From the NCBI GenBank assembly GCA_027491195.1, contig JAIXWQ010000006.1, positions 1-64,000 of the forward strand: a stretch of 64,000 nt of DNA. The letters run 5' to 3'. The position numbers were made by a program, and so were the translations under genes. The DNA is from Cytophagaceae bacterium (GTDB lineage Bacteria; Bacteroidota; Bacteroidia; Cytophagales; Spirosomataceae). Of the stretch, positions 2,717 through 49,398 are shown one piece after another (positions within the stretch are counted from its first letter, which is position 1; each line of letters begins with the position of its first letter). A model generated the notes under the pieces. The model was not told the DNA's origin and did not search any database. It saw nothing but the letters and a program-made list of their open reading frames with translations.

Positions 2717-2732
2717 TAGTGGTGGGATTGAA

Positions 2733-2781
2733 AGCATAAAGAATAAAGCACAAAGAATAAGGCACAAATAATAAAGAATAA
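2733..2781 (+). repeat. 7-bp word array (AGCATAA/AGAATAA type)
   Basis: Seven consecutive heptamers in perfect register: AGCATAA, AGAATAA, AGCACAA, AGAATAA, GGCACAA, ATAATAA, AGAATAA. It lies 17 bp upstream of the preferred ATG of the ComEA-like gene. Related heptamers recur at 13350-13377. Confidence 0.85.
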
Positions 2782-2807
2782 AGCTGGTTAAAACATTTCA
2801 AGTATGC

Positions 2808-2822
2808 ATCGCCTATGGCGAT
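2808..2822. repeat. Mini-hairpin ATCGCC-TAT-GGCGAT
   Basis: Perfect 6-bp inverted repeat with a 3-nt loop, lying between two 7-bp word arrays that are reverse complements of each other. The same stem with a different loop (TGC) occurs at 13385-13399. Confidence 0.8.
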
Positions 2823-2828
2823 ACCAAC

Positions 2829-2884
2829 TTTATGCTTTATTCTTTATGCTCTATGCTTTATTGAAAATGCTCTATGCTTTACCG
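2829..2884 (-). repeat. 7-bp word array, inverted relative to 2733-2781
   Basis: Eight heptamers in register on the plus strand: TTTATGC, TTTATTC, TTTATGC, TCTATGC, TTTATTG, AAAATGC, TCTATGC, TTTACCG. Most are reverse complements of the words at 2733-2781, so the spacer as a whole forms a large imperfect inverted repeat around the mini-hairpin at 2808-2822. Confidence 0.85.
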
Positions 2885-2918
2885 AAAAGCAAGTTCAAAC
2901 AAAAATTCCACAACCCCC

Positions 2919-13319: not shown

Positions 13320-13321
13320 GA

Positions 13322-13384
13322 GAGTATAGAGTAGAGAGTATAGATTTAAAGCATAAAGAATAGAGCATAAAGAATAAAGGAGGA
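13322..13384 (+). repeat. 7-bp word array between uxaB and uxaC, first block
   Basis: Nine heptamers in unbroken register starting two bases after the uxaB stop: GAGTATA, GAGTAGA, GAGTATA, GATTTAA, then AGCATAA, AGAATAG, AGCATAA, AGAATAA, AGGAGGA. The second group is the same word family as 2733-2781, and the first recurs at 47120-47147. Confidence 0.85.
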
Positions 13385-13399
13385 ATCGCCTGCGGCGAT
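13385..13399. repeat. Mini-hairpin ATCGCC-TGC-GGCGAT
   Basis: Perfect 6-bp stem identical to that at 2808-2822, with a different 3-nt loop, and again placed directly after an AGCATAA-type word array. Confidence 0.8.
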
Positions 13400-13443
13400 G
13401 AATATGAAATATTTTAATGTCATTCTTTGAACTTTGCCACAGA

Positions 13444-13513
13444 CGACTAACTACTGACGACTGGCTACTGACTACCGACTACTGACCACTGTCCACTGCC
13501 CACTAACTACTGA
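13444..13513 (+). repeat. 7-bp word array CTACTGA type, ten units
   Basis: Ten consecutive heptamers with no register slip: CGACTAA, CTACTGA, CGACTGG, CTACTGA, CTACCGA, CTACTGA, CCACTGT, CCACTGC, CCACTAA, CTACTGA. It ends 19 bp before the uxaC start. It is a different word family from 13322-13384. Confidence 0.9.
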
Positions 13514-26300: not shown

Positions 26301-27415
26301 TCTTTCGCGAAGATTGCCTCCAAGGCAGAAGCCCCTTTTGTGACCACTTTGCCTGCCGGCAATTCTTTCAATAATTTGATTCCTGCGAATTCCGGAGTGG
26401 AGCTCAAGATTTCCACCGGCACCTGCGCCATCGCACCATTGCTCATTTCTACGTAGATGAATCCGCCTTTTCCTACGCGAGCAAGACCTGCCTGTGGAAT
26501 GCTTGGGATTTTCTGTGTTCCCACTTCGATGCGGGCGCTCACAAATTGTCCTACCGTGAATTTCCTCTCGTCTGCCTTATTCGCAAAATGGCCGTGAACA
26601 GAGGTCGTGCGGTCGGTTAAATCTACTTGTGGGGCGATTAAGAAGATCTTAGCCGAGGCTTTTTCTCCTTCGGATTCGAATTCGATGGTTTGGCCGATGT
26701 TTAATTTTGCCAAATCCTTCTCGAATACCTTCAGCTCCACGTGTTTGTCCGCCATCCCTACGACTTTGATTAAGACATCAGAGGGCGTCACGTATTTGCC
26801 AATCGCTAAGAATTGGTCTTGAATGTAGCCATCGATGGGCGAACGCAAAGTTAAAACGGACGAGATGTTTCCTTTCGCCAGCGATTTCAAATCGCAGCCT
26901 AAGACCTCTAATTTTAGCCCCAAAGCCTTCACCTGCGCATTCACATTCCCTAAATCTGCCTCCGATTGTTGCAGTTTCTTCTTCGATCCCACTTCCTCAT
27001 TCGTCAACACTTGTTGACGCGATTTCTCTGAGCTCATAAAGGTCTGAGACGAAAGCGCCTGCAAGTATTCTTGCTGCATTTGGATGAATTCAAGTGAGGT
27101 TAAAGTGGCCAAAGCCTGGCCTTTCGATACCTTTTTGCCTGGAAGCAATTCGTAGGTCGTCTTCACGTAACCTGCGATGGGAATCGAGATGGAGGCAAGC
27201 GAAACGGGTGGCACATCGACCACGCCCGTGCATTTGATTTCGGTGGACATTTCTTTTTCTTCCAAAGTCCCGAATTCGATGCCCGCGTTTGTCTTCTGCT
27301 CCGCCGTTAATTTAATTTCGGTCACCGGCGTTTCCTCCTGTGCTTCTTCTTTTTTCGAGCAAGCGCTCAAGCCGATTAAGAGGCTTAGCGTTGCATATTT
27401 CAATAGCTTATTCAT
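26297..27415 (-). CDS. RND efflux periplasmic adaptor (CusB/CzcB-like lipoprotein)
   Basis: 372 residues. Lipoprotein signal with cysteine near residue 19 (LLIGLSACSKK). Membrane fusion protein of a tripartite metal pump, with lipoyl/barrel-sandwich halves around a coiled-coil hairpin (about 115-200: QQEYLQALSSQTF to KLEVLGCDLKSL), then a beta-barrel domain and membrane-proximal domain. Overlaps the pump gene by 8 bp, so it is the last gene of the operon 32224-26297. No histidine- or methionine-rich metal-binding N-terminus is seen. Confidence 0.9.
   Translation of the reverse strand: MNKLLKYATLSLLIGLSACSKKEEAQEETPVTEIKLTAEQKTNAGIEFGTLEEKEMSTEIKCTGVVDVPPVSLASISIPIAGYVKTTYELLPGKKVSKGQALATLTSLEFIQMQQEYLQALSSQTFMSSEKSRQQVLTNEEVGSKKKLQQSEADLGNVNAQVKALGLKLEVLGCDLKSLAKGNISSVLTLRSPIDGYIQDQFLAIGKYVTPSDVLIKVVGMADKHVELKVFEKDLAKLNIGQTIEFESEGEKASAKIFLIAPQVDLTDRTTSVHGHFANKADERKFTVGQFVSARIEVGTQKIPSIPQAGLARVGKGGFIYVEMSNGAMAQVPVEILSSTPEFAGIKLLKELPAGKVVTKGASALEAIFAKD
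26299..26315. other. Small inverted repeat at the ispE/adaptor convergence
   Basis: AATCTT-TCGCG-AAGATT, a 6-bp stem with 5-nt loop, spans the last bases of both convergent genes. It could act as a weak bidirectional terminator, but there is no T-tract, and it also encodes the adaptor's C-terminus. Confidence 0.3.
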
Positions 27416-30400
27416 TTCCTATGATCGTTTGACGTGTGATAATCGCCTGGTTGTAGGCGTTGACTTCTTGTAAATAACTCTCGCGAATCTGCCAGGCTTG
27501 CTGCGTATTTTGCAGCATTTCGACGTATTCGATTTCGCCTTGTTGGTAACTTTTTAGGGCGGTCTTTTCTAATAAAATGGCCTGAGGCAGAGCCGTGGTA
27601 GTGTAGTAGGCCAAACTCGCCCGGTATTTTGAAACCGCCGCCTCCGCATTCTTGTAATCCGTTTGCAAGGCAGATTCGGTTTGGATTTTTTGGCTAATAA
27701 AAGCCTCCTCCTGCAATTTCGCAGAGGCAATTTTCGCCTTTTGTGCTTTGCCAAAAATTGGGATAGCCAGGCCGGCCTGCACGAAGTTTTGGCCCCCTAC
27801 CTTGTCAATACTCTGCGTAGTTACACCGATTCTTACATCCGGTTTCAAACGTTCCCGCTCTACCGCCGTCAATAATTTCCCATGTTCCACCTGCTCCGCT
27901 AAGAGTTCAATCGTCGGGTTCTTCGCCGGATCAAAAGCCGCGACGCCAGATTCCATCGTCAAAGGCTCTAGCCCTTCTATCGTAAATTCGCCGGGTTCGT
28001 TGATCCAATAAGCGAGGTTTTGGTAGGCCGTTTTTTGATCAGCTTCTAACGACAGTCGCTTCTGTTGAAACTCGCGTAAACGCGTCTCCGCCGCCATCAA
28101 TTCCAGTCGATTCGTCTCACCTTGTTGGTACTTGATCGTCGCTGCACGTTTCATTTGGGTGTACAAACTGTCTTGCGAAGCTAGAAATACAAGATTCTTT
28201 TGCTGTGCCAAAATCTGGTAATAGTAGAACTTCACACTCGAAGCCACTAAATTCTGCGTAATCTTCAAGCGCTTTTCACTCAACACTTTCGCCGAAGTCA
28301 AGGCCTTCACCTGTGCCTTCAAAAGCGTGGGCCAAGGGATGCTTTGGGAAGCCATCACCGTATAATCTTGACTCGAAAAGGTCTGCGTTTTTCCGTACTG
28401 CGCATCCAACGTTCCCTTCGGCAATTCTTTGCCAGAATTGATCAAGGCCTCCGCGGTTTTTACGTCGGCGATGCCAGTAGCGAGGAGGGCATTCCGGGTG
28501 GAAGCAAGCGAGAGACAAGACTTAAGCGAAAGGCGGGTGTCGTCACTTCGTGACTTAGTCGACTTCGTCTTAGTCAATGGGTCGTCGCTTTGCGACTTAG
28601 TCACTGCAAAGGTCGAAAAGGATAAAAACATGAAAAGGGCTATCATCCCTAAACCTTTGGCCTTCAGCTTCGCTTCTCTGCGGCCCATCACCAGCGAATA
28701 GACAACTGGGATAACGACCAGCGTTAAGAAGGTCGCGGTGATAAGTCCGCCGATCACGACAGTTGCTAATGGACGTTGAACTTCAGCACCTGGCGAATGA
28801 CTTAATGCCATCGGTAGGAAACCTAAAGAGGCCACCGCCGCAGTCATAATAACGGGTCTGAAACGTAATTCTAAGCCTTTCTTCAAACGTTCTTCCACAC
28901 CTAATCCTTCGTCTGCTAATTGCTTAAAGAAGGAAAGCAATACAATCCCGTTCAGAACGGCAACACCGAATAAGGCGATAAACCCGATCCCTGCAGAAAC
29001 AGAGAAGGGCATGCCACGCAACCAGAGCGCTACTACGCCACCGATCGCGGATAAAGGAATCGCCAAATAAATAATGGCCGCCTCCAGGAAGGATTGGAAC
29101 GTAAAAAATAGCAATACAAAAATTAGCGCGAGCGCGATGGGAACCACTAAGGCTAAGCGGGATTTCGCGGCTTGCAAGTTTTCGAAGGTGCCGCCGTAGG
29201 TCACATAATAACCGGCTGGCAAGGTAATCTTGTTCTTCATGACTTTTTGGATATCCGCTACGACACTTTCCACGTCACGACCACGCACGTTAATACCGAT
29301 GGTGATTCGGCGGTGCGTGTTATCGCGCGAGATTTCTAAAGGTGCATTTTCGTATGCCACCTCGGCTACTTCCTGCAACGGGATTTGGGAGCCAGAAGGT
29401 AGGTCGATGTATAATTCGCGCAAGTTTTGGATATCCTGGCGATGCACAGAATCCATACGCACCACGAGGTCAAAGCGCTTCTCCCCTTCCATCACGATTC
29501 CCGCCGTTTCTCCAGCGAATGTCATCTTGATGGCCGAGTTTACTTCGTTCACATTCAATCCGTATTGCGCCATCTTCACGCGGTTGTATTTCACCACGAG
29601 CTGTGGAATGCCATCGATTTGTTGCACTTTAATATCTCCCACCCCCTCAATAGAGCGAATGTAGCGAGAGGCCTCCGTCGCGTGATCAAATAATTCTTGC
29701 AGATCTTCCCCAAAAATCTTCACCGCAATATCGGACTTCACACCCGCAATCAATTCATTAAAACGCATCTGAATCGGCTGCGTAAATTCAAAGTTCACTT
29801 CTGGATAGACATCCAAGGCCTTGTCCATCTTCTCCTCTAATTCTTCCATCGTCTCTGCATTCTTCCATTCCGAAGGATCCTTTAGCTGGATAATTAAGTC
29901 ACAAGAGTTGATCCCCATCGGGTCCGTCGGGATTTCAGAGGCTCCAATACGAGAAACGACTTGTTTGATTTCTGTTGGAAATTTCTTCAGTAACATCGCT
30001 TGAGCGGCGGTGTTGACTTTGATGCTTTGGGACAAAGAGGCGTTCGTCGGTAACAATGTTTCCACCGCGAAATCGCCTTCGTTTAATTCGGGAATAAACT
30101 CTCCGCCTAATGACATAAATAAGGCGATGCTAGCTGAGAATAGGCTAAAAGCCCCGATCACCACCCATTTGCGTTGCTTCAATGCCCAATTAATGATCGG
30201 CTGGTATTTACCATACAAGAATCCCATAATGCGATCTGCGATGGTCACCTCGTGGCTGATTTTCTTGCTTAAAAATAAGGCCGACATCATGGGTACGTAA
30301 GTCAACGAAAGAATTAAAGCGCCTAGGATGGCGAAACTCACGGTTTGAGCCATCGGTCTGAACATCTTGCCTTCGATACCGCCTAGTGCCATGATGGGCA

Positions 30401-31802
30401 GGTAGACAATCAGGATGATGATAACGCCGAAGGCAGCGGAGCTGAAAATGGCTTTGGCAGAAATACCCACTTCCTCATCCATCGCGTGCTGACTTAATTC
30501 CTCGCCTTTTCGATGGCTGTGGAGCCGGTGAATAATGGACTCCACGATGATGACGGCGCCGTCTACAATCAGGCCAAAGTCAATCGCACCCAAGCTCATC
30601 AAGTTCGCCGACACCCCGAAAATGTGCATCAGCGCAAAGGCAAACAATAAACAAAGGGGAATCACCGAGGCCACGATCAAACCAGCGCGTAGATTTCCAA
30701 GCAATAAAACCAAGATAAATACCACGATTAGTCCCCCTTCGATCAGGTTTTTCTCCACCGTATTAATGGCGCGACCGATCAACACGCTCCGGTCTAAATA
30801 AGGGACAATCTTAATTCCTTGCGGCAATGTTTTACCGATGATGTCCATTTGGGCTTTCACATCTTGTACGACCTGATTCGCGTTCGCTCCTTTTAAAAGC
30901 AACATCACGCCACCTACTGCTTCGCCTTCGCCGTTTCGGGTCATGGCACCATAGCGGACCGCTTTCCCGAAGCCTACTTTGGCCACATCCTTCACTAAAA
31001 TAGGTAATCCGGCCTCGCCTCTTTGGTAAACCACCGTATTTTCAATGTCCTCTAAGGAGGTTAACATTCCCTCTGAGCGGATGAAATAGGCATCAGTCCC
31101 TTTCTCTAAATAGCTACCTCCCGAATTAGAATTGTTGATTGAAACGGCCTTAAACACGTCATTCACACTCACATGCATGGCGCGCAAACGCTCCGGATTC
31201 ACGGCGATTTCGTATTGTTTCAAGTTACCCCCAAAAGAGCTGACCTCCACCACGCCCTTGATTCCCAAGAGCTGTCTTTTAATCAACCAATCCTGGTAGG
31301 TCCTCAAATCCGCCAGCGAATATTGGTCCTTGAAAGCCGGGTCGACCACTAAGGTATATTGGAAGAATTCCCCTAAACCGGTCGTGATAGGCGCCATTTC
31401 CGGCACCCCAGCCCCCTGTAATAAATAAGGTTCAGCCGCTTTCAACTTCTCCGCGACTTGCTGACGCGTGACCTCCGTGGCGACGTCATCCTCGAAAACG
31501 ACGGTAATAATGGACAGCCCCATCCGGGAAACGGAACGAATATCCTTCACATTCGGGATCGTACGTAAAGAAATCTCCAGCGGATAGGTGATGAATTTTT
31601 CGACCTCTGAAGTCGCCAGCGCCGGGGATTGCGTAATCACCTGCACTTGGTTCGAGGTAATATCTGGAAGCGCATCGATGGGTAATTTACTCAGCGAATA
31701 TCCTCCCCAAAAAACCAGCCCCAGGACAAATAGCCCGACCACTAATTTATTGCGAATACTAAAACTAATAATGGAATTAATCATGATTTTAAAATTAAGC
31801 AT
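27408..31802 (-). CDS. Heavy-metal RND pump fused to a TolC-type outer-membrane channel
   Basis: 1464 residues from ATG 31802 (ATG 31784, giving MINSIISFSIRNK, is an equally good start). Residues about 1-1035 are a complete CzcA/CusA-type inner-membrane pump. The proton-relay motif DFGLIVDGAVIIVE, near residue 410, resembles CzcA-type divalent-cation pumps more than CusA. A hydrophobic stretch (GLGMIALFMFLSFSTFAV, about 1045-1062) looks like a former signal peptide. It is followed by a repeat-derived linker (about 1067-1087) and a TolC-family domain of about 375 residues rich in long helices. Pump-channel fusions of this kind occur in other Bacteroidota. How the channel part reaches the outer membrane (processing or otherwise) is not known. 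Confidence 0.9.
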   Translation of the reverse strand: MLNFKIMINSIISFSIRNKLVVGLFVLGLVFWGGYSLSKLPIDALPDITSNQVQVITQSPALATSEVEKFITYPLEISLRTIPNVKDIRSVSRMGLSIITVVFEDDVATEVTRQQVAEKLKAAEPYLLQGAGVPEMAPITTGLGEFFQYTLVVDPAFKDQYSLADLRTYQDWLIKRQLLGIKGVVEVSSFGGNLKQYEIAVNPERLRAMHVSVNDVFKAVSINNSNSGGSYLEKGTDAYFIRSEGMLTSLEDIENTVVYQRGEAGLPILVKDVAKVGFGKAVRYGAMTRNGEGEAVGGVMLLLKGANANQVVQDVKAQMDIIGKTLPQGIKIVPYLDRSVLIGRAINTVEKNLIEGGLIVVFILVLLLGNLRAGLIVASVIPLCLLFAFALMHIFGVSANLMSLGAIDFGLIVDGAVIIVESIIHRLHSHRKGEELSQHAMDEEVGISAKAIFSSAAFGVIIILIVYLPIMALGGIEGKMFRPMAQTVSFAILGALILSLTYVPMMSALFLSKKISHEVTIADRIMGFLYGKYQPIINWALKQRKWVVIGAFSLFSASIALFMSLGGEFIPELNEGDFAVETLLPTNASLSQSIKVNTAAQAMLLKKFPTEIKQVVSRIGASEIPTDPMGINSCDLIIQLKDPSEWKNAETMEELEEKMDKALDVYPEVNFEFTQPIQMRFNELIAGVKSDIAVKIFGEDLQELFDHATEASRYIRSIEGVGDIKVQQIDGIPQLVVKYNRVKMAQYGLNVNEVNSAIKMTFAGETAGIVMEGEKRFDLVVRMDSVHRQDIQNLRELYIDLPSGSQIPLQEVAEVAYENAPLEISRDNTHRRITIGINVRGRDVESVVADIQKVMKNKITLPAGYYVTYGGTFENLQAAKSRLALVVPIALALIFVLLFFTFQSFLEAAIIYLAIPLSAIGGVVALWLRGMPFSVSAGIGFIALFGVAVLNGIVLLSFFKQLADEGLGVEERLKKGLELRFRPVIMTAAVASLGFLPMALSHSPGAEVQRPLATVVIGGLITATFLTLVVIPVVYSLVMGRREAKLKAKGLGMIALFMFLSFSTFAVTKSQSDDPLTKTKSTKSRSDDTRLSLKSCLSLASTRNALLATGIADVKTAEALINSGKELPKGTLDAQYGKTQTFSSQDYTVMASQSIPWPTLLKAQVKALTSAKVLSEKRLKITQNLVASSVKFYYYQILAQQKNLVFLASQDSLYTQMKRAATIKYQQGETNRLELMAAETRLREFQQKRLSLEADQKTAYQNLAYWINEPGEFTIEGLEPLTMESGVAAFDPAKNPTIELLAEQVEHGKLLTAVERERLKPDVRIGVTTQSIDKVGGQNFVQAGLAIPIFGKAQKAKIASAKLQEEAFISQKIQTESALQTDYKNAEAAVSKYRASLAYYTTTALPQAILLEKTALKSYQQGEIEYVEMLQNTQQAWQIRESYLQEVNAYNQAIITRQTIIGNE
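28542..28602 (+). repeat. Mini-hairpin + TTAGTC units inside the RND-TolC gene
   Basis: Three units read on the plus strand (antisense to the gene): GTCAC-TTC-GTGAC then TTAGTC (28542-28560); GAC-TTC-GTC then TTAGTC (28561-28575); AATGGGTC, then GTCGC-TTT-GCGAC and TTAGTC (28576-28602, with the hairpin at 28584-28596). The same unit design forms the intergenic array 46967-47111. Here it encodes the linker (reading SQSDDPLTKTKSTKSRSDD) between the pump and channel domains. Confidence 0.85.
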
Positions 31803-37786: not shown

Positions 37787-37803
37787 TTGACAAATCTTGT
37801 CAA
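37787..37803. promoter_or_regulatory. 17-bp palindrome TTGACA-N5-TGTCAA, copy 1
   Basis: TTGACAAATCTTGTCAA, followed by TACCTGAAAA. It lies 63 bp before the TylF-like methyltransferase start and upstream of a TATTTTTA -7-like element at 37843-37850. Two more copies with the same spacing are at 47248 and 47347. Looks like an operator for a dimeric regulator; the regulator is unknown. Confidence 0.6.
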
Positions 37804-46216: not shown

Positions 46217-46423
46217 ATGAAAACCAAACTCGTCTTTTCGACCGTTTTGATCAAGTCCCGCTTGACTTTACGGATGACACAATCACAGGTAGCTTCCGCC
46301 GTAGGAGTTTCCCAAAGCGCCTACAATTATTGGGAATCCGGAAAACATTATCCGAACGCCACGAAGATCTACCTCCTCATTAAAGTCTTGAAGATTCCCA
46401 TAGAGGATGTTTTCTCCGCCTAA
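46217..46423 (+). CDS. Small XRE-family DNA-binding protein
   Basis: 68 residues, almost entirely a Cro/C1-type helix-turn-helix domain: LTLRMTQSQVASAVGVSQSAYNYWESGKHYPNATKIYLLIKVLKIPIEDVF. No effector domain. Could regulate itself or the neighbouring lipoprotein; no toxin-like partner is present. The TTGACA/TGTCAA palindromes 0.8-0.9 kb downstream are possible targets, which is speculation. Confidence 0.85.
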   Translation: MKTKLVFSTVLIKSRLTLRMTQSQVASAVGVSQSAYNYWESGKHYPNATKIYLLIKVLKIPIEDVFSA

Positions 46424-46431
46424 AAAATTCT

Positions 46432-46439
46432 TACCTTTG
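46432..46439 (+). promoter_or_regulatory. -7 element TACCTTTG, 5 nt before the lipoprotein gene
   Basis: Perfect TAnnTTTG followed by five G and then ATG 46445. Suggests a leaderless or near-leaderless mRNA. The element overlaps the 21-nt gap after the XRE gene, giving the lipoprotein its own promoter. Confidence 0.5.
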
Positions 46440-46444
46440 GGGGG

Positions 46445-46966
46445 ATGATTCGCCTCAGCATTTTAATCTTTTTGACATTCATTGCGTGCACCAGCTCCCC
46501 GGAGCCGGCGACCCATTTCTACGATTGGAAAAAAGAGCTGAACCAGCTTTCCTCATCCCCCCTATCGGTAAAAAAGACCGTCACCCTCGATGGCACCACC
46601 GAAGTCATCGACTCCGTTCAGCTAGATTTGAAGAAAGAATGGGCCCTTTTTGAGGAAGCGGACCTAAACAAACCTGCTTACGCCCTCAGTTACACGGATG
46701 AATCCACCCCAGGCCTAATCCAATACACCCTAAAAAAAGGCGAAAATCTTCCTGTTCGTTCCTTTAAAATAGCCCTGGACTCTGCAGGCCGCCCATCACA
46801 GGTAGACTTTGAGATTTCCTCTGAGAATTTAATTTATATTACGTCCAAAAACCTATCGATGCACCTCATCTCCGGTCGCGTCGTTTCCTACACCATTTCT
46901 GGATCTCAAGCTCTTCGCTGGTTTTCGTCTCCTACTCGGTATACGGTTAGTGGGGTGGCGCTCTAG
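46445..46966 (+). CDS. Lipoprotein of unknown function
   Basis: 173 residues. Lipobox with cysteine near residue 15 (IFLTFIACTSS), then a strand-rich globular region (VKKTVTLDGTTEVIDSVQLDLKKEW, GLIQYTLKKGENLPVRSFKIALD). I do not recognise the family. The stop codon is immediately followed, with no gap, by the mini-hairpin array at 46967. Confidence 0.7.
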   Translation: MIRLSILIFLTFIACTSSPEPATHFYDWKKELNQLSSSPLSVKKTVTLDGTTEVIDSVQLDLKKEWALFEEADLNKPAYALSYTDESTPGLIQYTLKKGENLPVRSFKIALDSAGRPSQVDFEISSENLIYITSKNLSMHLISGRVVSYTISGSQALRWFSSPTRYTVSGVAL

Positions 46967-47111
46967 CGCTTCGCTGCGCGAAGTCGTGATCGCTGCGCGA
47001 AGTCGTGACTTCGTCACTTAGTCATCGCTACGCGATTTAGTCGTCAATGCGTGACTTAGTCGCTGCTTCGCCGCTTAGTCGACTCCGGCTTAGTGTCTTT
47101 CCGGCTTAGTA
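46967..47111 (+). repeat. Array of about 19-bp mini-hairpin + AGTC units
   Basis: Eight units begin at the first base after the lipoprotein stop codon. The first six have exact 19-bp spacing: a 13-nt segment and then GAAGTC (units 1-2) or TTAGTC (units 3-6). Unit 3 is GTGAC-TTC-GTCAC, unit 4 ATCGC-TAC-GCGAT, unit 5 GTCAA-TGC-GTGAC, unit 6 GCTGC-TTC-GCCGC; 3 and 4 pair perfectly and 5 and 6 have one mismatch. The last two units are shorter (GACTCCGGC and TCTTTCCGGC). Stems differ in sequence but keep pairing. No ORF. Confidence 0.88.
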
Positions 47112-47119
47112 TCATATGA

Positions 47120-47147
47120 GATTAGAGAGTAGAGAGCATAGAGAATG
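47120..47147 (+). repeat. 7-bp word array GATTAGA/GAGTAGA type
   Basis: Four heptamers in register, GATTAGA, GAGTAGA, GAGCATA, GAGAATG, directly following the 19-bp array. Same word family as 13322-13349. The region 47148-47240 shows nothing I can name. Confidence 0.7.
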
Positions 47148-47247
47148 GGGTAATGCAAACCTGCTGCCAATACCATACTGGCCGTGAAATGACTGAAACG
47201 GCATAATGTTAAAATAGCGGCGAGGTATGCAAAGGCGTTTTCAGCTT

Positions 47248-47264
47248 TTGACACAATCTGTCAA
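47248..47264. promoter_or_regulatory. 17-bp palindrome TTGACA-N5-TGTCAA, copy 2
   Basis: TTGACACAATCTGTCAA followed by TACCTGAAAATCG, as at 37787. Part of a roughly 99-bp module repeated at 47347. Confidence 0.65.
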
Positions 47265-47346
47265 TACCTGAAAATCGAGTTTATCAATTTGTCCAGTTAT
47301 TCACAAAACCGCTTTAAACAGAGCTTAAAACCGGATACTCTTGCTA

Positions 47347-47363
47347 TTGACACATTCTGTCAA
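47347..47363. promoter_or_regulatory. 17-bp palindrome TTGACA-N5-TGTCAA, copy 3
   Basis: TTGACACATTCTGTCAA followed by TACGCCAAAATCG, 99 bp after copy 2 and 192 bp before lptB. Confidence 0.65.
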
Positions 47364-47380
47364 TACGCCAAAATCGTTTC

Positions 47381-47439
47381 TACAGCTCACGAAGATTCAC
47401 AAAATTGTTTATACAGCTCTCGAAGATTTACAAAATCCG
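47381..47439 (+). repeat. Two tandem copies of a 31-bp-period repeat
   Basis: TACAGCTC[A/T]CGAAGATT[C/T]ACAAAAT at 47381 and 47412, 31 bp apart, lying between palindrome copy 3 and lptB. No ORF with coding character covers it. 47440-47526 has no recognised feature. Confidence 0.7.
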
Positions 47440-47526
47440 ACTGCAAGCTGGCGCAAGGTTTGAAAACAACAGGTTCAAGTCGTAAAGGAGCAAACAAGGC
47501 GTGGAGTAAAACATCGAAATAATTCG

Positions 47527-47534
47527 TATTTTTA
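47527..47534 (+). promoter_or_regulatory. -7 element TATTTTTA, 4 nt before lptB
   Basis: TAnnTTTA followed by AGGC and ATG 47539. Predicts a leaderless transcript. No -33 TTG at 19 nt. Confidence 0.4.
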
Positions 47535-47538
47535 AGGC

Positions 47539-48270
47539 ATGATTTTACGGACAGAGAATTTAGTCAAGAAATACGGGCAGCGATTAGTGAATGATCACAT
47601 TTCGTACCAGGTGGCGCAGGGGGAAATTGTGGGACTTTTGGGGCCAAATGGCGCCGGGAAGACCACTTCCTTCTATATCGCGACGGGATTAGTGAAGCCG
47701 AATGAGGGGAAAGTGTATTTAGATGATTTGGACGTAACAGACTTACCTATGTACAAGCGCGCGCGTTTAGGCATCGGGTATTTAGCACAGGAGGCATCGG
47801 TATTCCGGACTTTAAGCGTGGAGGAAAATATACAGGCGGTGTTAGAGATGACGGATTTGTCCAAAGCCGCCCAAAAAGAAAAGGTCGAAAGCTTGCTCGA
47901 AGAGTTCTCCTTGACGCATGTGCGCAAGAGTTTGGGGCAGGTGCTTTCAGGTGGAGAGCGTAGAAGAACCGAAATCGCAAGGGCGCTAGCGGTAGATCCC
48001 AAATTCATCTTGTTAGATGAGCCGTTTGCGGGGGTCGATCCAATCGCGGTGGAGGAGATTCAAACAATCGTATCGAAGTTGAAGTTTAGAAATATCGGCA
48101 TCTTGATTACGGACCATAATGTGGATGAGACGTTGTCGATTACAGACCGAGCTTATTTGCTTTTTGAGGGAAAGATTTTGAAGGCGGGGACGCCGAGAGA
48201 ATTAGCGGATGACGAACAAGTTCGTCGTTTGTATTTAGGTAAAAACTTTAAGTTAAGAGAAAATAAATAG
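47539..48270 (+). CDS. lptB: LPS export ABC transporter ATP-binding protein
   Basis: 243 residues, ABC ATPase. Drives extraction of lipopolysaccharide from the inner membrane with LptFG. Walker A is [11 protein letters not shown] near residue 37. The ABC signature [15 protein letters not shown] is near 136, Walker B is [13 protein letters not shown], and the H-loop is ITDHNV. The GERRR form of the signature is typical of LptB. LptF/G/C/A are not adjacent. The next gene begins with no spacer. Confidence 0.92.
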
Positions 48271-49398
48271 ATGAAGAAGGAGACGATTGCGGTACATGGG
48301 AGTCATTTGAAGGATGAGACGGCGGGGTCAATTGCGGCGCCGGTGTTTTTGACGACGACTTTTGAACGGGCTTTGGACGGAACCTACCCAAAAGGCCACA
48401 TGTATTCTCGCAACTCCAATCCTAATCGTACTGCCCTTGAAAAAGGCCTAGCGGCCTTAGAAGGAGCGTCGCGAGGCTTCGCCTTCGGCTCAGGCCTCGC
48501 CGCCGTCAACGCCGTTTTCCAATGCCTTCAATCCGGCGACCACATTTTGATGCCCGAAGTAGGCTATTACGCCTCCTACAAACTTGCTGAAGAAATTCTA
48601 GGCCCCTGGGGTTTAGAGGTAACGCAGGTAGACATGACGGATTTGGCGAAAGTCGAAAAGGCGATTCAACAAAACACAAAACTGATCTGGGCGGAGACGC
48701 CGGCGAATCCGATGCTTTGTTTAACAGACATCGCTGGACTAGCAAAGATAGCGCAGAAAAACGGCCTAAAATTAGGGGTAGATAATACCTTAGCGACTCC
48801 GATCATCCAAAATCCCATCGCCCTTGGTGCAGACTTCGTGATGCACGCAACGACGAAATATATTGGCGGACACTCCGATATTATGGGTGGAGCGGTGCTC
48901 GTAAAAGAAGATGATGAGTGGGCGAAACGTATCGAGCGAGTGCAGATATTGATGGGGGCGACCCCTAATCCGCTGGATTGTTATTTACTAGCGAGAGGAT
49001 TGAAGACTTTGCCTTTGAGAATGAGAGAGCATAGTGCGACGGCTTTGGAACTAGCCAAACGTTTAGAAAAGCATCTAAAAGTAGAAAAAGTACATTACCC
49101 GGGTTTAGAGTCCCATCCACAATACGATCTTGCGAAAGAACAAATGAAACAAGGTTTCAGTGGTATGATTGCGCTGCAGGTGAAGGCGGGAGAAACGGAA
49201 ACGCGGGATATGGCTGGCAAATTGCAGCTGTTTCAACAGGCGACGAGTTTAGGTGGGGTGGAATCTTTAGTAGAGCACCGCAGATCCATCGAAGGACCGC
49301 AAAGTACGACACCGGGAAACTTGTTGCGTTTCTCGATTGGACTCGAACATGTGGATGATTTATGGGCAGACTTAGATCAAGCCCTGAATACTATTTAG
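48271..49398 (+). CDS. Trans-sulfuration PLP enzyme (cystathionine gamma-synthase/beta-lyase type)
   Basis: 375 residues, Cys/Met-metabolism PLP family (fold type I). Motifs: the N-terminal GSIAAPVFLTTTFE, YSRNSNPNRTALEKGLAALEG, WAETPANPMLCLTDIAGL and the PLP lysine in MHATTKYIGGHSDIMGG near residue 199. SLGGVESLVEHR near 315 is common to the gamma-synthase/lyase group. Whether it is MetB, MetC, MGL or O-acetylhomoserine sulfhydrylase cannot be settled by eye. Directly abuts lptB, so both are probably on one mRNA. Its end overlaps the convergent PEGA gene by 8 bp. Confidence 0.87.
   Translation: MKKETIAVHGSHLKDETAGSIAAPVFLTTTFERALDGTYPKGHMYSRNSNPNRTALEKGLAALEGASRGFAFGSGLAAVNAVFQCLQSGDHILMPEVGYYASYKLAEEILGPWGLEVTQVDMTDLAKVEKAIQQNTKLIWAETPANPMLCLTDIAGLAKIAQKNGLKLGVDNTLATPIIQNPIALGADFVMHATTKYIGGHSDIMGGAVLVKEDDEWAKRIERVQILMGATPNPLDCYLLARGLKTLPLRMREHSATALELAKRLEKHLKVEKVHYPGLESHPQYDLAKEQMKQGFSGMIALQVKAGETETRDMAGKLQLFQQATSLGGVESLVEHRRSIEGPQSTTPGNLLRFSIGLEHVDDLWADLDQALNTI

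Follow-up and report, generated by a model that had tools for sequence, protein, structure and literature searches.

Results

The window, as we call the whole 64,000-nt stretch of DNA that was analysed, carries an array of mini-hairpins in the gap between a 173-aa ORF and an ABC-transporter ATPase gene that is presumably LptB-like (Table 1). As the first-pass annotation had described, this array lies at 46967-47111, starts at the first base after a stop codon (TAG, 46964-46966) and consists of six units with an exact 19-bp spacing (46967-47080), followed by two shorter ones. Its description of the stems as keeping a 5-3-5 pairing applied to part of the array: only units 3 and 4 are perfect in that register, while in units 1 and 2 the pairing is shifted in register, and units 5 and 6 contain one mismatch each. 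The folding energy of the window array is uninformative (z = -1.55 to -1.90, as DNA or RNA and for either strand), and the only Rfam match above the gathering score in the window was a tRNA, leaving the array without a match. The case for preserved pairing rests on the units elsewhere in the genome and the genus, where it is strong.

Table 1. Repeat arrays and neighbouring features of the window (position 1 is the first nucleotide of the window)
Feature	Position	Strand	Remarks
ORF-less inverted heptamer-array element	2731..2888		AAAGAAT/AAAGCAC left, complement right
Heptamer arrays of AAAGAAT, AGAGTAG and AGTAGTC types	13321..13513		around a short palindromic core
Second hairpin array, TTAGTC dialect	28540..28602	+	inside minus-strand ORF 27408-31802
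Upstream ORF, 173 aa	46445..46966	+	3' border adjoins the array
TAG stop of the upstream ORF	46964..46966	+	next base is the array start
Mini-hairpin array, TTAGTC orientation	46967..47111	+	six 19-bp units, then two short degenerate ones
Unit 1 hairpin, TTCGC-TGC-GCGAA, then GTC	46970..46982	+	shifted register
Unit 2 hairpin, TCGC-TGC-GCGA, then AGTC	46990..47000	+	shifted register
Unit 3, GTGAC-TTC-GTCAC + TTAGTC	47005..47023	+	perfect 5-3-5, hairpin 47005-47017
Unit 4, ATCGC-TAC-GCGAT + TTAGTC	47024..47042	+	perfect 5-3-5, hairpin 47024-47036
Unit 5, GTCAA-TGC-GTGAC + TTAGTC	47043..47061	+	one mismatch
Unit 6, GCTGC-TTC-GCCGC + TTAGTC	47062..47080	+	one mismatch
Two short degenerate units	47081..47110	+	end is TTAGT
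Heptamer array of another dialect (AGAGTAG/AGAGCAT)	47118..47143	+	directly downstream of the hairpin array
Downstream ABC-transporter ATPase ORF	47539..48270	+	anchor for the orthologous intergenic comparison

Hairpin units in Aquirufa

In the genomes searched, hairpin arrays were found in one group of bacteria. A simple search pattern (TTAGTC-N11..15-TTAGTC) matched three times in the window, against a shuffle mean of 0.01, and 70 times in the 2.49-Mb genome (G000), against seven matches of a reversed-pattern control. Under a stricter pattern, with the tag, the closing C-G pair and the TNC loop fixed and the inner three pairs left free, ten of the 222 genomes in the family had matches, each of them among the 38 genomes of a single genus, Aquirufa; when reversed as a control, this pattern matched nowhere in the genus and once elsewhere in the family. 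The array is thus not unique to the window site, and some of these freshwater Aquirufa bacteria hold dozens of such short arrays. Along the G000 genome the matches are very unevenly spread, with 44 of the 70 on contig C3 (576,707 bp) and three on the similar-sized C6. A scan of named genomes returned 84 stretches, 80 of them listed, and among the matches listed were Aquirufa antheringensis, several 'Cytophagaceae' MAGs, a MAG labelled Spirosoma fluviale and one Actinomycetes MAG (L106). The latter, the sole match outside the group, is a lone unit without an array and was therefore taken as chance.

The inserts between TTAGTC tags in Aquirufa measure 9, 11 or 13 nt (3-3-3, 4-3-4 or 5-3-5), with unit lengths of 15, 17 or 19 bp; summed over three sets of sequences, successive tags were separated by one of these lengths in 494 cases and by 10, 12 or 14 nt in 16. 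TTAGTC forms the 3' tag of 636 out of 690 units, and a stem longer than 5 bp was found in none of the 690. Perfect 13-nt hairpins accounted for 46 of 55 inserts in G000, whose stretches had mostly been picked around arrays, for all 18 in the evenly spaced stretches of a second genome (G012), and for 248 of 274 at other Aquirufa loci, as compared with means of 8.6, 3.5 and 43.2 when the 3' arms were redistributed at random among the units. This bears out the claim that the stems pair beyond chance. Such a test does not suit the 4-3-4 class, whose arm types are too few (one in G000, where the control gave 12.1 and 12 were observed). With slightly looser tags, 382 of 426 units were perfect, 38 had one mismatch and six had two; the perfect units comprised 25 arm types, began with a purine in 382/382 cases and had C at the closing position in 380/382. 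Since changes in the stems are paired and the tag is constant, the earlier suggestion of a structure-dependent process or function is supported.

Such a process might be that of a neutral, self-correcting satellite, whose arrays expand and contract by slippage, whose stems are repaired by hairpin-templated (quasipalindrome) template switching, and for which the PF05635 genes described below would be passengers surviving in gene-free gaps. Duplications of several-unit blocks are indeed visible in the arrays, and rapid templated correction would agree with the predominance of perfect stems and the scarcity of mismatched intermediates, yet the stop of the stems at 5 bp is left unexplained. We consider this explanation unlikely, and return to it with the gene data.

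The mismatches that do occur point to one strand. Of the distinct units with a single mismatch, 20 show an A·C and 5 a G·T when read on the TTAGTC strand, and a further 10 have another mismatch (20:5, p = 0.004; 23, 5 and 10 when all units are counted), and an A·C on this strand is a G·T/U wobble on the GACTAA strand. Besides, the loops read GNA on the GACTAA strand in 267 of the 382 perfect units; C-GNA-G is the loop of unusually stable DNA mini-hairpins. Because the mismatches are mostly G·T/U there, and the C-GNA-G loops lie there as well, it is probably the GACTAA strand, antisense to the upstream gene, that folds, either as single-stranded DNA or as RNA. A mutational strand bias could be an alternative source of the mismatch asymmetry, which the satellite explanation would otherwise leave unexplained. 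As a separate observation, CC-GNA-GG mini-hairpins exist in the repeats of the TCCGGAGG type too (L227, L232, L290 and related loci), where they sit on the AGTC strand, opposite to the TTAGTC type.

Placement at gene borders

The layout was determined for 41 arrays, from the window and the G000 and G012 stretches, with genes called by a simple ORF caller. Overlap with an ORF was absent in 40 of them. The arrays tend to sit close behind a gene: of the 38 that have a called gene on both sides (the window array at 28561 was left out), 33 are nearer to the gene on their own 5' side, as read in TTAGTC orientation. A same-strand gene precedes 27 of the 41 arrays, seven of which start exactly on its TAG stop, so that at some arrays the upstream stop codon is the TAG of the first TAGTC tag; TAG ends 17 of these 27 upstream genes versus 152 of 718 genes overall. 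At the other 13 arrays with a gene on that side, one of them inside an ORF, the gene on the 5' side lies on the opposite strand, in some cases with its start codon a few bases away. Where two hairpin arrays lie at most 700 bp apart, they are convergent in ten cases, divergent in one and on the same strand in one. The window holds a further array (28540-28602) that runs in frame within a 1464-aa minus-strand ORF (27408-31802), whose product resembles a fusion of an RND efflux pump with a TolC-like outer-membrane protein; the array encodes a linker, and two genes may here have been fused through it.

At orthologous positions the arrays come and go. In the gap upstream of lptB that corresponds to the one in the window, seven species have hairpin units, with stems that differ, while one (G029) is without an array, another (G017) has heptamers instead, and the three outgroups shown (G024, G028, G014) have none. 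Heptamers are also present inside some hairpin arrays. Between the pdhA-like and pxpA-like genes, five species possess arrays together with a gene, and pdhA ends with TAG; in G023 and G025 there is neither array nor gene and the stop is TAA, as it likewise is in G029 over the 385 nt seen. Presence and absence were both seen at these two loci, whose flanking DNA differs as well.

The position behind genes might indicate an RNA function in host UTRs, with strings of mini-hairpins that end transcripts, block exonucleases or offer sites to RNase III, and that are kept for their benefit to the host. The 27 arrays that follow a same-strand gene, including those that start on its stop codon, would suit this explanation, and wobble-type intermediates fit RNA pairing. 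However, an opposite-strand gene occupies that side in the 13 remaining cases, some near a start codon, and the apparent folding strand is antisense to the upstream gene. Also, the lptB gap lacks an array in one species and has heptamers in another, which argues against a conserved host need. Finally, two intrinsic terminators were found in 46400-48300, against 2.4 expected from shuffles, so that the sole terminator-like match within the array is at chance level. Overall, we regard a host UTR function as improbable.

PF05635 genes between inverted arrays

The gene at the pdhA-pxpA locus encodes a PF05635 four-helix-bundle protein and is flanked, in all five genomes, by a convergent pair of hairpin arrays. 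No PF05635 gene stands beside the window array. The protein is 122 aa long, matches TIGR02436 (1.6e-31) and has the solved relatives 2gsc and 2rld; a profile search reached these two, and no Avd chain. The gene evolves under purifying selection: dN/dS lies at 0.02-0.13 in nine of ten pairs (one with a saturated dS), and at 0.39 for the closest one. On a midpoint-rooted tree, which has some long branches elsewhere, the five hairpin-array proteins fall on one branch (99/99).

A frame of inverted repeats is common to PF05635 genes of the genus. The left flank of each gene was scored against the reverse complement of the right one, using 50 of the 60 PF05635 matches in the genus, one of which (L244) was dropped for its short flank. 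All 49 scored Aquirufa genes exceeded 13.5, as compared with 4/49 for the same genes in direct orientation and 0/250 for random ORFs (maximum 13.5). This threshold was drawn from two random-ORF controls, the earlier of which (300 ORFs, of other sizes) had its 99% point at 13.5 and its maximum at 49.5. A control with mismatched left and right flanks is invalid within Aquirufa since orthologous loci occur in both orientations; the controls finally used were random ORFs, direct orientation and unrelated loci. A motif found the gene in 32 of 60 loci only, and a profile from those 32 was used for later scoring.

Beyond the genus, a sample of 118 genomes from the whole phylum yielded PF05635 genes in 90. 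Their flanks exceeded the 95% point of mismatched unrelated loci in 18 of 30 cases in a sample of the order (14 exceeded the 99% point) and in 15 of 28 in a sample of the phylum (13), both samples being best-scoring search matches rather than random draws. In direct orientation, 7/30 and 3/28 lay above 13.5. Mismatched flank pairs reached 21.0 and 20.5, which makes the flank test less clean outside Aquirufa. Of note, one PF05635 gene with heptamers of the ATGTAGA type (L248, G013) adjoins, as judged by eye, the apparent end of a 5S/23S rRNA operon, a setting reminiscent of the classical rRNA intervening sequences.

The convergent layout at gene borders, the PF05635 gene between arrays and the wider class of inverted tandem repeats are new relative to the first-pass annotation. 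The neutral satellite introduced above leaves unexplained that 49/49 Aquirufa PF05635 genes, with many unrelated repeat types, lie between inverted arrays.

Repeat dialects and their proteins

We refer to the repeat sequence type proper to a PF05635 element as its dialect. Flank repeats mostly have a period of 7 or its multiples (7, 14 and 21 dominate), and the dialects differ between proteins, comprising GCTAGTC, TCCGGAGG, CAGTAGTC, GACGTTG, TGGTGAA and GTTCAAA, further AGAGTAG, AAAGAAT, TAAGAGT and TAGGTAA, and the TTAGTC hairpins. Across 50 genes, the identity of the proteins correlated with shared array vocabulary (Mantel r = 0.636, 0/2000 permutations). At the hemE locus, which is occupied by different PF05635 genes in different species, dialect followed protein (r = 0.80; partial 0.81, 0/5000) and not species (r = -0.08), as calculated from the 12 of 17 rows that have species distances, two of them from one genome (G009). 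This shows that the dialect tracks the protein, not the species, and that the cassette is inherited or exchanged as a unit, although plain linkage of adjacent DNA could also give the protein-dialect correlation.

The number of arrays was related to the presence of the gene in part of the dialects. The five genomes with a hairpin-dialect gene (73-99% complete) have 41, 30, 39, 37 and 42 pattern matches, as opposed to 7, 15, 28, 10 and 17 in the five array-bearing genomes, 80-90% complete, in which that gene was not found (p = 0.008, for ten closely related genomes that are not independent samples). The persistence of arrays in the latter five would also be expected of the satellite. AAAG-dialect copies numbered 72, 46 and 29 in three genomes with an AAAG-dialect gene versus 4-27 in the other seven, whereas the AGAGTAG-dialect count does not rank with its own gene (26 in G023 and 10 in G009 versus 33 in G000).

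Copies without an ORF are frequent. The window hairpin array is itself ORF-less and one-sided. Across the entire genome that contains the window, AAAG-dialect copies at a distance of 20-300 bp from each other converge in 17 cases, share a strand in four and never diverge, a bias that the satellite explanation does not account for. Several ORF-less AAAG copies (L183, L294, L297) enclose a short palindromic core, and in these as well as at window positions 2731-2888 the core palindrome is followed by a stretch like CGTATTTGAAATGTTTC. ORF-less heptamer copies look like internally deleted derivatives, and the AAAGAAT elements with a palindromic core are candidates for a MITE-like family nested beside PF05635 genes.

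Discussion

Our conclusion is that the arrays represent either the mirror-image ends of small PF05635 cassettes or what remains of such cassettes, and that one of the Aquirufa dialects evolved into a hairpin code that conserves shape. For the window array itself, we favour with moderate confidence the reading that it is a stand-alone copy, lacking an ORF, of the array that terminates a small selfish PF05635 element with a shape-recognising protein. The full element would consist of a PF05635 four-helix-bundle gene between two convergent arrays of its own short tandem repeat, in the order gene border, TAGTC(hairpin TTAGTC)n, gene, (GACTAA hairpin)m GACTA, gene border. To judge from presence and absence among orthologous gaps, cassettes and their array-only derivatives may spread between intergenic sites with a fast turnover. 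The PF05635 protein would recognise the hairpin shape plus the GACTAA spacer rather than the stem sequence, and this recognition may keep the units foldable on the GACTAA strand, as single-stranded DNA or RNA, leaving stems free to drift provided that both arms change together. A target-site duplication, a clean empty site or a transposition event was not among our findings, and pdhA-pxpA differs between species beyond the element.

To our knowledge, no nuclease or recombinase activity has been described for PF05635 proteins. A member from Xanthomonas campestris forms a pentamer of four-helix bundles according to PMC4990558, and Avd of diversity-generating retroelements is presented in PMC10053308 as a structural relative of PF05635. 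Because of this pentamer and the relationship to Avd, binding of structured nucleic acid by PF05635 proteins is a fair guess.

The same resemblance to Avd might suggest that the units are copied by a retroelement akin to diversity-generating ones, with the PF05635 protein acting as Avd alongside a reverse transcriptase. RVT_1 was detected in three of the ten array-bearing genomes (G000, G012 and G017, all with a hairpin-dialect gene), as compared with 2 of the 28 others. However, it was not found in the remaining seven, no reverse transcriptase was noticed in reading the surroundings of individual arrays, and the 99%-complete A. antheringensis genome (G001) is without RVT_1 yet has a hairpin-dialect gene and 30 pattern matches, which leaves this mode of copying very improbable. 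Still further down in likelihood stands mobilisation by a Y1 transposase (IS200/IS605 or RAYT) that reads a tetranucleotide plus a hairpin. REP/BIME repeats are short intergenic hairpins with a fixed tetranucleotide-like tag that occur in clusters, and a fixed tag beside a hairpin is common to REP/BIME-RAYT systems and our arrays. Y1_Tnp (PF01797), though, was found in 0/10 array-bearing genomes and in 12/28 others, and the arrays are further set apart by the variation of stems from unit to unit, the 15-, 17- or 19-bp units and the convergent layout at gene borders, so that this explanation is largely refuted. With Y1 in 0/10 and a reverse transcriptase in 3/10 array-bearing genomes, neither enzyme appears to be required.

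The closest known systems are the intervening sequences (IVSs) of 23S rRNA genes in Coxiella and Leptospira, which likewise are small selfish elements with a single S23p/PF05635 ORF and pairable inverted terminal sequences. For the Coxiella IVS, PMC4990558 describes three tandem heptamers just before the S23p ORF and inverted repeats as its frame. A PF05635/S23p ORF is also present in the full element at pdhA-pxpA, but whereas IVSs reside inside 23S rRNA genes and are excised by RNase III, hairpin-dialect elements lie between protein genes, and none of the five hairpin-dialect copies is inserted within a 23S rRNA gene. They further differ from IVSs in having arrays of their own dialect on both sides, covarying stems and many ORF-less copies. 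By analogy, rRNA intervening sequences may be one branch of a larger PF05635-array class.

Other known repeats share single traits with the arrays. TAACTGA heptamers are sporadic, intergenic 7-bp direct repeats of Beggiatoaceae, cyanobacteria and Bacteroidetes for which a role as regulatory binding site has been proposed (PMC4679880); the terms '23S', 'S23', 'four-helix' and 'intervening' do not occur in the main text of that article. In our data, by contrast, the inverted arrays that surround PF05635 genes include a dialect class made of heptamers and another made of hairpin units, the latter units not being 7-bp repeats of the TAACTGA or STRR-like kind, as those of other dialects are. Unlike the fixed-sequence terminal inverted repeats of MITEs or classical insertion sequences, the ends here are arrays of variable units. 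Fungal mitochondria contain GC clusters and double-hairpin elements, which are portrayed as small mobile palindromes with constrained hairpins (PMC4478555, PMC7218506). Constrained hairpins are thus common to these clusters and our arrays. The GC clusters are organellar, and we know of none that forms tandem arrays on a fixed tag or has an associated protein gene. A link between PF05635 and repeat arrays was not found in the open-access PMC literature (preprints excluded).

More tentatively, it is possible that Bacteroidota widely harbour a new class of selfish prokaryotic element, in which a non-enzymatic four-helix-bundle protein and its two inverted arrays co-evolve. The protein would read a private dialect, in Aquirufa a hairpin shape code, and use it to copy or maintain the arrays via host replication or repair, in place of a transposase or reverse transcriptase. 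Should the arrays indeed be driven by the protein, they would be moved or amplified by none of the known transposases, integrases or reverse transcriptases. The location of PF05635 genes between arrays could join an orphan protein family and scattered intergenic heptamers into one testable system, and the hairpin dialect, with its structure conserved and its sequence not, is a natural experiment that makes shape recognition directly testable.

Apart from the arrays, a dispersed palindrome (TTGACA-n4..8-TGTCAA) is found in the window at 37787, 47248 and 47347, two of these three copies being followed by TACCTGAAAA; it occurs ten times in 387 kb of G000 stretches and six times in 400 kb of G012. 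Ahead of the lptB-like gene, two copies score as promoter-like -35 boxes, about as often as chance would predict.
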